From positions 1 to 64,000 of the forward strand of contig CACHJZ010000007.1 of assembly GCA_902580275.1 (NCBI GenBank): a DNA stretch of 64,000 nt, written 5' to 3'. Each line of letters opens with the position of its first letter. Position 1 is the first letter of the stretch. The position numbers and the translations under genes are program-made. The stretch is from an uncultured Pelagibacteraceae bacterium (GTDB taxonomy: Bacteria; Pseudomonadota; Alphaproteobacteria; Pelagibacterales; Pelagibacteraceae). Under the pieces are notes generated by a model, which searched no databases, had not been told where the DNA came from, and saw only the letters and a list, made by a program, of their open reading frames with translations. This document shows positions 1 to 5,830 of this stretch, piece after piece.

Positions 1-35
1 ATAACAACTATAAGTAGAATGACGAAATATTCCAT
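1..35 (-). CDS. 5' end of a possible membrane protein (partial, runs off the window)
   Basis: Minus-strand ATG at 33-35 reads MEYFVILLIVV..., hydrophobic N-terminus, open to the window edge; same strand as the GT/phosphoesterase pair. Confidence 0.35.
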   Translation of the reverse strand, partial: MEYFVILLIVV

Positions 36-99
36 AAATTTAGATAGGTTAATTTTGCATCATTACACTTTTTAATGCAAACAAATTAAGAAAAATTAG

Positions 100-1107
100 C
101 TAACGATTTGGTGAAATATTATTAAAAAATATTTTTGCTGTTTCTTCCCATGTGAATTTTTTTGCAAATTCAAGACAATCATTTCGATCAACTTTTAAAG
201 CTTTATAAGCTGAAACTTTAAGATCATTATCTAGACAATCTATTTTGGAGCCTTCAAAAATATCTTTAGGACCTGGAACGGGATACGCAGCAACAGGCGT
301 ACCGCAATTTAAAGCCTCAGTAACTACAATTCCAAATGTATCTGTTTTACTTGGGAATACAAAAACATCAGAAGATGCAAAATATGATGCAAGTACACCA
401 TTTGTTTTTTCTCCTAAAAATATATCTCTAGGGAATTCTTCTTTTAATTTTTTTAAATCGGGTCCTTTTCCTATTATTATTTTTGTACCTTCTAAATCAC
501 ATTCTAAAAAAGCTCTTATATTTTTCTCAACAGCAACTCTTCCAACATAAATCCAAATTGGTCTTTTGTGGGGTAAATTAATTTTTTGAGGTTTTTTAAA
601 AGCTCCGTGATTTCCTCCTCTGGTCCAGGTAATCATTTTATTATTATCTATACCTATATCGATTAATTCTTTTCTCATAGATTCTGTTGTTACTAAAATT
701 CTCTCAGCCTTATTATGAAAGTTTGCTAAGAATTTTTCAGCCCATTTTGCAGGTATAATTGGAAAGTATAGTTTAAGATATTTATCAAACCTTGTATGAA
801 AACTCGTAGTAAATTTTAGATTATTTTTTAAACAATATCTTCTTGCCATAATCCCAATGGGACCTTCGGTAGCGATATGAATTGCATCAGGTTTGATTTT
901 CTTTATTAAACTACCAACTCTTGGCCATACATTTATAGATAACCTTATTTCATTATATTTAGGCATCGGAAAGGTTAAAAATAAATTTGGAGTAATATAT
1001 TCTATAGTATGACCTTGTTCTTTTAAGATATTACCTGTTTCATGCAAGGTTCTTACGACACCATTTACTTGTGGAAAATATGCATCTGTAGCAATTAAAA
1101 TTTTCAT
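100..1107 (-). CDS. GT4-family glycosyltransferase, candidate diacylglycerol glycosyltransferase (Agt-like)
   Basis: N-terminus MKILIATDAYFPQVNGVVRTLHETG and C-terminal FPSKTDTFGIVVTEALNCGTPVAAYPVPGP are typical of GT4 enzymes; adjacent to PlcP-like gene. Confidence 0.8.
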   Translation of the reverse strand: MKILIATDAYFPQVNGVVRTLHETGNILKEQGHTIEYITPNLFLTFPMPKYNEIRLSINVWPRVGSLIKKIKPDAIHIATEGPIGIMARRYCLKNNLKFTTSFHTRFDKYLKLYFPIIPAKWAEKFLANFHNKAERILVTTESMRKELIDIGIDNNKMITWTRGGNHGAFKKPQKINLPHKRPIWIYVGRVAVEKNIRAFLECDLEGTKIIIGKGPDLKKLKEEFPRDIFLGEKTNGVLASYFASSDVFVFPSKTDTFGIVVTEALNCGTPVAAYPVPGPKDIFEGSKIDCLDNDLKVSAYKALKVDRNDCLEFAKKFTWEETAKIFFNNISPNR

Positions 1108-1110
1108 TAA

Positions 1111-1923
1111 CTATGAAGCTTTTTTTAAGTCTTCAGTTTTAATAGGTTTAATTATATCTTTAGTGTCTAAATATTGTTCTCTTATTTTATCCCAATATAA
1201 TATTTCAAAACTACCATCATAATTTTCAGCTAATGCAGTACAAGATTCAACCCAGTCTCCACAATTTAAATAATTGACACCATTAAAATCTCTATCCTCA
1301 GCATGATGGATGTGACCACAAATTATTCCATCAAACTTTTTTCTTTTTGCATAATCTGAAACTGTTTTTTCATATTCACCAATATATTTGACTGCGTTTT
1401 TGACTTTATACTTTAAAAATTTTGCAAGGGACCAATATTCTTTTCCTCTCAACCTTCTAAAAAAGTTAATTATTACATTAAATTGTAACAATAAATTATA
1501 TGCTATTGATCCAATTTTAGATAACCATTTAGCATGTTTCATTACTCCATCCCAAGCATCACCATGGACAACAACATATTTTTTTCCATTATTTGTTTCA
1601 TGAATTACTCTATTTAACATATGAATATCACCAAAATGCATTGGAATAAATTTCCTTAACATCTCGTCATGATTACCCATTATGTAGAACACTTTAGTCC
1701 CATGTCTTGCTTTTCTTAAAATTTTTTGGATTACATCATTATGTTCTTGAGGCCAAAAAAAACTTTTTTGCATTGCCCAGATATCAATAATGTCTCCTAC
1801 AAGATAAAGATTTTCAGATCTTGAATTTTTAAAAAACTCTAAAATTTTATTCGCCTGACAACCTTTGGTACCTAAATGCAAATCAGAAATAAATATACTC
1901 TTATATTTTAATATATTAGGCAT
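1111..1923 (-). CDS. plcP: Calcineurin-like metallophosphoesterase of the LpxH/PlcP type
   Basis: ISDLHLGTKG, LVGDIIDIW, MGNHDE, VVHGDAWD, ICGHIHHAED metal-binding motifs; PlcP rather than LpxH favoured because LpxI is encoded at 38004-38798. Confidence 0.75.
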   Translation of the reverse strand: MPNILKYKSIFISDLHLGTKGCQANKILEFFKNSRSENLYLVGDIIDIWAMQKSFFWPQEHNDVIQKILRKARHGTKVFYIMGNHDEMLRKFIPMHFGDIHMLNRVIHETNNGKKYVVVHGDAWDGVMKHAKWLSKIGSIAYNLLLQFNVIINFFRRLRGKEYWSLAKFLKYKVKNAVKYIGEYEKTVSDYAKRKKFDGIICGHIHHAEDRDFNGVNYLNCGDWVESCTALAENYDGSFEILYWDKIREQYLDTKDIIKPIKTEDLKKAS

Positions 1924-1937
1924 TTAAAAATCTTTTT

Positions 1938-1955
1938 TTTAACACAACTGTAACA
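1938..1955 (-). promoter_or_regulatory. Putative Pho-box-like direct repeat TGTTACA-GTTG-TGTTAAA facing the metallophosphoesterase gene
   Basis: Read on the minus strand: two heptamers sharing TGTTA-A, 11-bp period; half-sites identical to those at 1985-2002. Confidence 0.5.
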
Positions 1956-1984
1956 CGAATCATGTAATTCTTATCTCATTCAAA

Positions 1985-2002
1985 TGTTACAAATTTGTTA
2001 AA
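1985..2002 (+). promoter_or_regulatory. Putative Pho-box-like direct repeat TGTTACA-AATT-TGTTAAA facing the DAGK-family gene
   Basis: Half-sites identical to the minus-strand element at 1938-1955; 11-bp period. Confidence 0.5.
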
Positions 2003-2021: not shown

Positions 2022-2906
2022 ATGTTATATTGTTTAATTTATAATCTAAACTCTTCTTCAGGAAGAAAATCACAATTCATAAATAGAGTTTTATCTAAGT
2101 TAAAAGAAAATAATTCTGTAGACTACTTTGAGACAAAAACAACAAATCAAGCTAAAGAAATTTTTAGAAATTTTAATCAAAAAAAATACGATCGACTAAT
2201 AATAGCTGGTGGCGATGGATCGGTATCTTTTGCAATTAATGAACTAATTAAAAATGATTTTAACTTTAAACACGATTTTGCCATAGGTTATATACCCGCT
2301 GGTACAGCAAATTTACTTCAAGCTGAATTATCAATGAATAAAAAAGTTGATGATATAGTTAATGTATTGATTTCAAACAATTATAAAACCTCTAATCTTG
2401 TAAAAATTAACGAAAGTTATTTCTTTTTAATGGCTGGTATAGGATGGGATGCAAAAATTGTTCATTCAATTAATTCAAAAATTAAAAAGATTCTTGGTAA
2501 AATTATATTCGGCATCAAGGGTTTTCAGTATTTCTTATTTATGAATAATAAAAAATTAAATGTTACTTTTGATGGACAATTTTATCAAGCAGACTGGATA
2601 TTATCCTCAAATACCAAATATTACGCTGGCCATCATAAAATAAATAAAACAAATATTTTTGAAGATAAATTAGTTACTTATATATTTAAGGATTTGACTA
2701 GAATCAATTTATTATATTCCATATTTTTAATAATCCTTAATGGCGACTTAAGTAAAAACAAAAATGTTATTACTACTTATTCTCAAAATATCACTATTGA
2801 AGGAAATGATTTAATACCTGTTCAAATTGACGGGGATAATTTTGGTTCATATAAAAAAATTCATTTAAATCAGTCAAATAAAAAAATGAATTTTCTTGTA
2901 AAATAA
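2022..2906 (+). CDS. Diacylglycerol kinase catalytic-domain family (YegS/LCB5-like) lipid kinase
   Basis: YNLNSSSGRK, GGDGSVSFAINEL, GYIPAGTANLLQAEL motifs; 294 aa. Confidence 0.8.
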   Translation: MLYCLIYNLNSSSGRKSQFINRVLSKLKENNSVDYFETKTTNQAKEIFRNFNQKKYDRLIIAGGDGSVSFAINELIKNDFNFKHDFAIGYIPAGTANLLQAELSMNKKVDDIVNVLISNNYKTSNLVKINESYFFLMAGIGWDAKIVHSINSKIKKILGKIIFGIKGFQYFLFMNNKKLNVTFDGQFYQADWILSSNTKYYAGHHKINKTNIFEDKLVTYIFKDLTRINLLYSIFLIILNGDLSKNKNVITTYSQNITIEGNDLIPVQIDGDNFGSYKKIHLNQSNKKMNFLVK

Positions 2907-4112
2907 TTATTTTATTCTACCATAAATATCTTGGTATCTCACAATATCGGTTTCCTTTAATATTGAACCAAGTTGCGCTTCAATAATTTTAACAGGCTTT
3001 TTAAAAGGATTTTCAATTCTATGAATGGCCCCTAGTGGAATGAATGTAGCTTCATTTACTTTTTTATAAAATACCTTTTTATTTAATGTTATTTTAGGTT
3101 TTCCTTGAGTAACTAGCCAGTGTTCTGATCTATGAAAATGCTTTTGAAGACTTAAGATACCTTTAGATTTAACATACAATTCCTTTATTAAAAAATTTTT
3201 ACCATTATATAAATTTGTATAACTACCCCATGGTCTATAAAAAACATTTTTCTTTTTAAAATATTTAGATTTGTTTTTTCCATACATTTTACAGATTTCT
3301 TTCCAGCTACCTAAATCAGACCATGGAATATCCAATTTAATCGCATTTATATTTTTTGTTTTTTCTAAAATTGCATAATCAAAAGATTTTTCAATTGACT
3401 TAATGAATGATGATTTATTTAGATAATATATGTTATTTCGATATTTTGACTTATGAACTGATGCTAAACAATTTTTGTAAGTTTTTGGTTGAAACTTTTT
3501 AAAATTATTAATGATTGAGTCTTTTCTTAAAAAAAACATGCCAGAATTCCAGTATCCCTTTTTTTTAATAACTTGCTTTGCTTTTGTAGGCTTTGGTTTT
3601 TCAATAAATCTTGTAACTTTATTGATATTTCTTTTATCTTTTTTGGTTAAAAAATATCCGTATTCGCTAGATGGGTTAGTTGGTTTAATACCAAAAATAA
3701 ATACATTTTTATTATCAAGATTAGATTTATTTTTGTTTATTTCTTTATTTAATTTATTTGGATTTTCAATTAAGTGATCTGCAGTAAAATACATTAAAGG
3801 CTGACTATTTGGGATGTCTTTTATTAGTGCCGAAGTTAATATAGCTGGGGCTGTATTTTTTTTTGCCGGTTCTAAAACAATCTTAAATTTTTTTATTTTA
3901 CTTTTTTTTAAAGCCTTTTTAACTTCTTTAATATACTTAGCATTTGTGCTGATGATGGGATAATCGTAGATATTTTTTTTAATTCTCTCAAAGGTTTTGT
4001 TAATTAGTGTCCAACCGCCAAAATCGATAAATTGTTTTGCTTGATGTTTTGATCCTTTGGGCCAGAGCCTAGTACCAGCTCCACCACATAAAATTACAGG
4101 TCTTATTTTCAT
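2907..4112 (-). CDS. manC: Mannose-1-phosphate guanylyltransferase / mannose-6-phosphate isomerase
   Basis: [18 protein letters not shown] nucleotidyltransferase motif, C-terminal cupin region (FYRPWGSYTNLY...HFHRSEHWLVTQG); start moved from 4205 to the ATG at 4112 because the upstream part overlaps ilvD. Confidence 0.85.
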   Translation of the reverse strand: MKIRPVILCGGAGTRLWPKGSKHQAKQFIDFGGWTLINKTFERIKKNIYDYPIISTNAKYIKEVKKALKKSKIKKFKIVLEPAKKNTAPAILTSALIKDIPNSQPLMYFTADHLIENPNKLNKEINKNKSNLDNKNVFIFGIKPTNPSSEYGYFLTKKDKRNINKVTRFIEKPKPTKAKQVIKKKGYWNSGMFFLRKDSIINNFKKFQPKTYKNCLASVHKSKYRNNIYYLNKSSFIKSIEKSFDYAILEKTKNINAIKLDIPWSDLGSWKEICKMYGKNKSKYFKKKNVFYRPWGSYTNLYNGKNFLIKELYVKSKGILSLQKHFHRSEHWLVTQGKPKITLNKKVFYKKVNEATFIPLGAIHRIENPFKKPVKIIEAQLGSILKETDIVRYQDIYGRIK

Positions 4113-5830
4113 TAAATATCTGCGTATGTCCTGACTTCTTCTTTTGCACCTGGATGTGTAGGCGCCCCGAGATATGCTGGTCCAACAGTTTGTGCGTACT
4201 TCCAAAGTGTTCCATTACCAAAATTAATTTTCTTTGGTTTCCATTTTTTTCGTCTTTTTGCTAATTCTTTTTTAGACAAACGAACATTTATTGTTCCTTT
4301 CTTAGCATCAAGATCAATAATATCTCCATTTCTTAATAGAGCTATTGGTCCTCCAACTGATGCTTCTGGCCCAACATGTCCAATGCAAAATCCTCTTGTT
4401 GCTCCTGAAAATCTTCCATCTGTAATTAGTGCAACTTTTTCACCCTTCCCTTGACCATATATTGCTCCTGTTGTTTGAAGCATTTCTCTCATACCTGGAC
4501 CACCTTTAGGACCTTCGTATCTAATTATAATGATATCACCATCTTTATACTTTTTATTTTTAACAGCTTTATAAGCTGCTTCTTCTGTATCAAAACATCT
4601 TGCCTTACCAGTAAATTGTAATCTTTTTAAACCAGCTACTTTAACAATAGCTCCATCAGGTGCTAAATTTCCTTTTAATCCAACTACGCCGCCATCTGGA
4701 GATAATGGTTGATTATATGTCCTCATAACTTTTTGATTTTTGTTAAATTTAACGTTTTTTAAATTTTGTCTCATAGTTTTACCTGTAACAGTCATGCAAT
4801 CACCATGAATGTATCCGCCATCTAAAAGTGTTTTTAATAACATTGGAACACCACCTGCTTTCCACATATCTTTTGCTACATACTTTCCACCTGGTTTAAG
4901 ATCAGCCAGATAAGGTGTTTTTTTAAATATTCTTGCAACATCCATTAAATCAAATTTAATTCCAGCTTCATTTGCAAGTGCTGGTAAATGTAATGCAGCA
5001 TTAGTAGATCCACCTGTTGCAGCAACAATAGTGGCTGCATTTTCTAAAGATTTTTTTGTAACAATGTCTCTAGGTCTAATTTTTTTTTCTAATAAACTCA
5101 TTACTGCTTTTCCACTTTTTAAAGCGTAAGAGTCTCTTTGAGTATATGGTGCTGGAGTTCCTGCTGAATAAGGTAAAGCTAAACCAATTGCTTCTGAAAC
5201 ACATGCCATAGTATTTGCTGTAAATTGACCCCCGCAAGCACCTGCACTTGGACAAGCTTTAAGTTCTAATTTTCTTAATGCATTTGCAGACATTTTTCCT
5301 GAGGAGTATTTTCCAACACCTTCAAAAACATCAACTACAGTTACATCTTTACCATTAAATCTTCCTGGCAATATAGATCCACCATAAATAAATACACTTG
5401 GTACATTCAAACGAACCATGGCCATCATCAAACCAGGTAATGATTTATCACAACCAGCTACACCGACTAGTGCATCATAACAATGTCCTCTAACGGTTAA
5501 TTCAGTTGAATCTGCAATTACATCTCTAGATATCAATGAAGACTTCATACCCTCGTGGCCCATTGCTATACCGTCTGTTACGGTGATAGTACAAAATTCT
5601 CTTGGTGTTCCACCCGCTTGATGAACACCTTTTTTAACAGACTGAGCTTGTCTCATTAAAGCAATGTTACAAGGAGCTGCCTCGTTCCATGTTGAAACAA
5701 CACCAACAAAAGGTTTGGCAACATCTTTTTCTGTTAAATCCATTGCATAATAAAATGATCTTTGTGGTGCTTTGTCAGGACCTACAGATGTATGACGACT
5801 AGGTAATTTTTTTTTATTAAATTTTGGCAT
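4112..5830 (-). CDS. ilvD: Dihydroxy-acid dehydratase
   Basis: 572 aa; [48 protein letters not shown] motifs. Confidence 0.96.

Follow-up and report, generated by a model that had tools for sequence, protein, structure and literature searches.

SAR11 bacteria are among the most abundant marine bacteria, and the exchange of phospholipids for sugar lipids is one of their main responses to phosphate shortage. In the window, by which we mean the whole analyzed stretch of 64 kb from an 18-contig, 1.18-Mb genome of SAR11 (Pelagibacterales), a gene set and a lipid-kinase gene that could take part in such an exchange diverge from a short intergenic region containing two boxes with the same half-sites. 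The locus raises the question of which regulator these boxes belong to and which of the two arms each of them controls. The relevant features are the following:

1–36, minus strand: start of phoR (third gene in the plcP arm), truncated at the contig end; aligns to phoR of a relative (L158)
100–1107, minus strand: agt-type GT4 glycosyltransferase gene, 335 aa (PF13439/PF00534)
1111–1923, minus strand: plcP-type metallophosphoesterase gene, 270 aa (PF00149)
1924–2021: intergenic control region, 98 bp, with the plcP arm (minus strand) to the left and the DAGK arm (plus strand) to the right
1938–2002: predicted double Pho promoter module, 65 bp
1938–1955, plus strand: predicted DAGK-directed Pho box, TTTAACA-CAAC-TGTAACA
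1985–2002, minus strand: predicted plcP-directed Pho box, TTTAACA-AATT-TGTAACA
2022–2906, plus strand: DAGK/YegS-type lipid kinase gene, 294 aa (PF00781)

An earlier note on this DNA had read the same two boxes in the other direction, as TGTTACAGTTGTGTTAAA on the minus strand (1955–1938) and TGTTACAAATTTGTTAAA on the plus strand (1985–2002); the letters of the window, read directly, match both sequences exactly, and the extent of the 98-bp region is confirmed.

Gene Content of the Cassette

The assignment of the flanking genes relies on domain matches and gene order. The plcP product has LpxH-like NCBIfam matches below the cut-off, the agt product matches the alpha-monoglucosyldiacylglycerol synthase model, also below the cut-off, and the DAGK product matches TIGR00147 just under the cut-off. 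The plcP and agt genes are 3 bp apart, and the presence of a metallophosphoesterase and a GT4 glycosyltransferase in one operon identifies them as a plcP-agt cluster, a gene order known in SAR11 strain HTCC7211 (PMC4796936). The HTCC7211 PlcP makes diacylglycerol from phospholipid and the HTCC7211 Agt makes sugar lipids from diacylglycerol (PMC4796936, PMC8231724); by analogy with these orthologues, the window proteins would be a phospholipase C and a glycolipid synthase. In 72 of the 74 relatives with enough sequence, phoR comes after agt and so occupies third place in the plcP arm, which makes feedback on the arm's own sensor probable. A second contig of the same genome (C12) starts inside phoR and runs to pstS-pstC-pstA; judged from the near-identical relative G026, a gap of ~200 bp separates it from the contig of the window (C7). 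Two minor observations concern neighboring genes. The mannose-1-phosphate guanylyltransferase ORF on the minus strand at 2907–4205 of the window is listed from a TTG codon, and the ATG used by its relatives gives a protein of 401 aa. On contig C12 (L031, 1007–1615), a 202-aa protein with an apparent signal peptide and no NCBIfam match is encoded between phoR and pstS.

Genomic Distribution and Conservation of the Boxes

We searched the genome for the pattern TGTTACA-N4-TGTTAAA, as the earlier note had proposed, and found exactly three matches, two in the control region and one at the pstS promoter, which is not the distribution of a randomly scattered motif; the same pattern read backwards, used as a control, had no exact match. 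An order-3 Markov simulation yielded one match per 6 Mb, or ~0.2 per genome, a rough estimate resting on a single match. A search for further regulon members by way of C-P lyase found PhnJ neither in this genome nor in any of 36 others from its genus, and the short phnJ loci of the other family contained no box. Across 61 SAR11 genomes, TTTAACA-N4-TGTAACA had 15 exact matches, distributed among pstS (6), plcP/DAGK (6), and phoR or phoR remnants (3). An 18-bp matrix built from pstS promoters of other SAR11 lineages only, with the clade of the window left out, ranked the boxes at 1938–1955 and 1985–2002 first and second, respectively, among all positions of the window; the third-ranking position (14559) falls within a glycosyltransferase ORF.

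Only the near-exact form of the motif is informative, because with two to three mismatches it shows no excess over background, and degenerate scans are thus unusable alone. The degenerate pattern TKTAAYA-N4-TKTAAYA, for instance, had six matches genome-wide, including four at the pst and plcP promoters, and its reversed control also had six. Three matches to the promoter pattern on viral contigs had no evident link to the system and were taken as chance.

Nearly all main-clade orthologues have both boxes (80 plcP loci fetched, two of which were ended by contig ends), so that the alignment of orthologous promoters bore out the expectation of conservation. Among 46 distinct rows, the box columns are 0.97–0.98 identical to the window, compared with 0.74 at plcP fourfold sites, the two row sets differing slightly; 16 of 18 columns are invariant in the box at 1938–1955 and 14 of 18 in that at 1985–2002. 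All 102 modules compared have the same inner spacing of 29 bp between the boxes. In G018, with a DAGK 77% identical to that of the window, both boxes are kept, with substitutions that the K and Y positions of the pstS consensus permit. In the most diverged orthologue, G016 (DAGK 60% identical), the DAGK-directed box has been lost, and the plcP-directed box, at 63 nt from plcP, stands only 2 nt before the DAGK ATG. That the boxes arose by chance or from an AT-rich background, a reading to which the unexceptional frequency of the mismatched motif lends itself, has a negligible probability in view of the exact-match enrichment, the conservation and the pstS/phoR context; chance origin is ruled out by the genome-wide exact counts together with the conservation relative to fourfold sites.

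PhoB as the Likely Regulator

Both window boxes consist of two 7-bp direct repeats separated by a 4-bp spacer, with the 11-bp period of a Pho box. The half-sites retain TGT-x-A-[CT], with A rather than C as the fourth base in most sites, and the lineage consensus of the half-site is TKTAAYA with an 11-bp period; TGTCATA is present in the pstS promoter of one relative (L129). The pstS gene of the same genome is preceded by three half-sites, TTTAACA-N4-TGTAACA-N4-TGTAATA, the exact match lying 80 bp before the gene, and in other SAR11 lineages TKTAAYN arrays with an 11-bp period occur before pstS. The same motif thus precedes core Pho genes, namely, pstS in this genome and in relatives, phoR in relatives, and pstC in some relatives. 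The PhoB proteins of SAR11 relatives pass the cut-off of TIGR02154 (PhoB equivalog), and their recognition helix, RTVDVHIRRLR, is that of E. coli PhoB (1GXP structure), so that a cognate PhoB with a matching DNA-reading helix is encoded in the relatives. No phoB was found in the assembly of the window (G000), probably due to a contig break, given that the pst contig (C12) ends inside pstA.

The direct-repeat mode of binding is common to OmpR-family proteins, and two full-length non-PhoB regulators of this family are present, so that the boxes could in principle be bound by an OmpR- or ChvI-like protein. We regard this as highly improbable: exact matches are confined to pst, phoR and plcP, pstS or PhoB is found in eight of the nine genomes that carry exact boxes, the ninth (G019) containing only a decaying remnant of the phoR promoter, and CenR has been reported absent from Pelagibacterales (PMC9275681). 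Within the genus, the pstS genes of plcP-type and plcP-less genomes share only about 66% identity, which suggests replacement of the whole island. Overall, the assignment of the boxes as PhoB-type Pho boxes, rather than chance occurrences, is well supported by sequence comparison, in agreement with the earlier proposal that both arms carry a lineage-specific PhoB-type site: the exact motif is unscattered, precedes pstS and is kept in orthologous promoters.

Orientation of the Boxes

The earlier note had each element pointing at its own gene. The direction so claimed hinges on the assumed reading, because TGTTACA/TGTAACA is nearly its own reverse complement, and polarity has to be judged from the asymmetric positions and from homology. 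All nine unidirectional exact sites (six at pstS, three at phoR or phoR remnants), which share descent and are not independent, read TTTAACA-N4-TGTAACA toward the gene. With the 18-bp matrix, the box at 1938–1955 scores 15.3 bits inward and 5.7 bits outward, and that at 1985–2002 scores 14.1 and 10.2 bits, respectively; the pstS site of the same genome scores 18.1 forward and 4.0 in reverse. Since the unidirectional pstS and phoR sites read toward their genes in this form, the boxes of the window appear to face each other, each serving the far gene, that is, plcP for the box at 1985–2002 (minus strand) and DAGK for the box at 1938–1955 (plus strand). The homology of the plcP half to the phoR promoter, described below, favors the same inward orientation over the original one.

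The outward alternative, under which each box would serve the adjacent gene and the transcripts would be leaderless or the start codons would lie further downstream, is compatible with the near-palindromic half-sites, and some SAR11 Pho sites that read toward their gene do end close to the ATG (20 nt at phoR and about 22–24 nt at pstC). A short distance alone can therefore not exclude an outward DAGK site, and we dropped the distance to the ATG as a sole argument against this reading. It is nevertheless very improbable given the low outward matrix scores and because a plcP −10 element at the usual 9-bp gap would then sit over the plcP ATG. Furthermore, the distance from the plcP-directed box to plcP is steady among orthologues (61, 62 and 63 nt) while that to DAGK shifts from 19 to 2 nt, and the ATG positions are conserved in orthologues. 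The inward orientation puts the boxes 61 nt from the plcP ATG and 66 nt from the DAGK ATG, with room for a −10 element and a leader, which removes the concern that the transcripts lack leaders or the ATGs are wrong; revision of the plcP and DAGK start codons is unnecessary.

Promoter Elements and Relationship to the phoR Promoter

Three further elements can be placed between the boxes:

1956–1963, minus strand: ATGATTCG, an invariant octamer where plcP transcription is predicted to start
1965–1970, plus strand: inferred position of the DAGK −10, TAATTC, with the geometry set by analogy with the plcP half
1970–1975, minus strand: predicted plcP promoter −10, GATAAG, 9 bp from the box, as in the phoR promoter

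At plcP and phoR, the box would replace the −35 element and is followed, after a 9-bp gap, by GATAAG or GATAAT, in keeping with a −10 element about 10 bp downstream; the ATAA of the plcP −10 is invariant among 34 distinct modules. On the DAGK arm there is no convincing match: the TA of TAATTC is invariant, and its agreement with TATAAT is poor (only about 2/6).

The plcP half, consisting of the box, TTTGAATGA and GATAAG, matches the phoR promoter of plcP-less relatives at 31 of 33 bases; in this comparison, made with the phoR remnant kept in G029, the box agrees at 17 of 18 positions and the gap and −10 together at 14 of 15. The composite pattern box-N9-RATAA has 59 matches in 300 genomes, with none for the reversed control; the 30 inspected matches comprised 25 at plcP, 3 at phoR, 1 at a phoR remnant and 1 elsewhere. 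G029 still carries the former phoR promoter, with truncated initial phoR codons, on the far side of its DAGK gene, which suggests that the cassette entered beside the phoR promoter. These comparisons indicate that the plcP half derives from the phoR promoter and that the plcP module occupies the site of a former phoR promoter.

At L157 (5546–5690), L160 (8343–8400) and L170, too, pieces of the phoR promoter and of the initial phoR codons survive where phoR was displaced or lost, and they mark the junction of phosphate-island exchange. In plcP-less SAR11 (L159 11960–11998, L173, L181, L184), phoR starts 20 nt past the Pho box and 5 nt past GATAAT, so close that the phoR mRNA is probably leaderless there; a similarly close box, about 22–24 nt from the ATG, precedes pstC in L161 and L159. 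The octamer ATGATTCG opens a 15-codon ORF (MIRVTVVL...) that overlaps the plcP start and ends just inside plcP, and this ORF is possibly a leaderless leader peptide, the second half of which varies freely. In G037, which belongs to the other family of the SAR11 order, inverted TGTCATA copies precede plcP (L163, 18900–19100), with no crossed module.

Proposed Mechanism

Taken together, the locus is probably a crossed double Pho promoter of the SAR11 membrane-lipid-remodelling cassette, in which each box would serve the far gene. This reading is based on the identity to the pstS/phoR promoter sites, conservation, polarity, the fixed 29-bp geometry and the phoR-promoter origin of the plcP half; PhoB binding, the transcription start sites, activation rather than repression of the DAGK arm, and the enzyme activities are inferred. 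Phosphorylated PhoB binds direct-repeat boxes and aids RNA polymerase at a −10 element just downstream (PMC3348028, PMC10294691). Each box would accordingly be a pair of PhoB half-sites standing in for a −35 element. PhoB~P on 1985–2002 would recruit RNA polymerase to the −10 at ~1970–1975 on the minus strand and switch on plcP-agt-phoR, with a transcript starting near 1963, and PhoB on 1938–1955 would act on the plus strand toward the lipid kinase, by symmetry through a −10 at 1965–1970 and a start near 1977. At low phosphate, PlcP would remove the phospholipid head group, Agt would add sugar to the resulting diacylglycerol, and DAGK, as its PF00781 domain suggests, would return surplus diacylglycerol to phosphatidic acid, with PhoR from the plcP operon feeding the response forward. 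The weakest link of the model is the poor DAGK −10, TAATTC; the loss of the DAGK-directed box from G016 also speaks against it.

The 29-bp inner distance corresponds to two box-to-−10 units that meet at ~1970, so that the open complexes would overlap; given that each transcript would also first have to cross the box of the other arm, the two arms may compete. The same overlap, along with the weak DAGK −10, is compatible with a different division of labor, in which the plcP-directed box activates plcP whereas the second box, or else PhoB at either site, acts chiefly to repress the opposite gene as a roadblock or by exclusion, leaving DAGK uninduced or lowered under phosphate starvation. PhoB activates or represses according to position (PMC10294691), and in S. 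meliloti a pho box just before the orfA-pit start accompanies low-phosphate repression (PMC3131613). We consider such a mode of action unlikely, although a serious candidate, because the second box shares the form of activating sites and is equally conserved, and there is no roadblock at E. coli intragenic PhoB sites (PMC10294691). A more speculative elaboration of the crossed double promoter, which we put forward with considerable doubt, is a see-saw: the shared melting region would let only one arm fire at a time, each departing polymerase would have to cross the PhoB site of the other arm, and a single regulator would balance the flow of diacylglycerol between sugar lipid and recycling to phosphatidate, an arrangement that insertion of the lipid cassette behind the phoR promoter would have created.

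Relationship to Known Systems

The boxes share with the classical Pho box (two CTGTCAT repeats with a 4-nt spacer, as in E. coli phoA and pstS and in S. meliloti) the 7-bp repeats, the 11-bp period, the TGT-x-A core, the replacement of the −35 element and a cognate PhoB with the same recognition helix. They differ in the fourth base, which in SAR11 is usually A (TGTAAY, not TGTCAT), in the first half-site, which is often TTTAACA, and in that the two window boxes face each other, with their predicted −10 elements meeting between them. Putative Pho boxes have been described at plcP clusters of marine bacteria, and these clusters were proposed to be controlled by PhoB (Sebastian et al., PMC4796936). 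These clusters, that of SAR11 HTCC7211 included, have plcP-agt in common with the window, whereas the main text of that paper gives neither the sequence of a SAR11 site nor its polarity and mentions no divergent DAGK arm or derivation from a phoR promoter. Our literature searches of open-access papers retrieved no SAR11 Pho-box sequence and no such double module. The crossed module and its phoR origin thus look new, whereas Pho boxes near plcP had already been proposed (PMC4796936).

A SAR11 Pho box of defined polarity would make the Pho regulon readable directly in many uncultured SAR11 genomes; the predicted module also places the lipid kinase in one circuit with plcP-agt and points to a route by which a lipid cassette could have come onto the promoter of the sensor kinase itself. 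Phosphate genomic islands of HIMB59, which represents a neighboring order, are described in the relevant part of one report as variable islands that contain pst, phoR-phoB, LpxH/PlcP-like, glycosyltransferase and diacylglycerol kinase genes (PMC10734472). The gene content and order described there differ from those of the window, that part of the report includes no promoter analysis (PMC10734472), and in the window, the plcP module appears to lie on a former phoR promoter.
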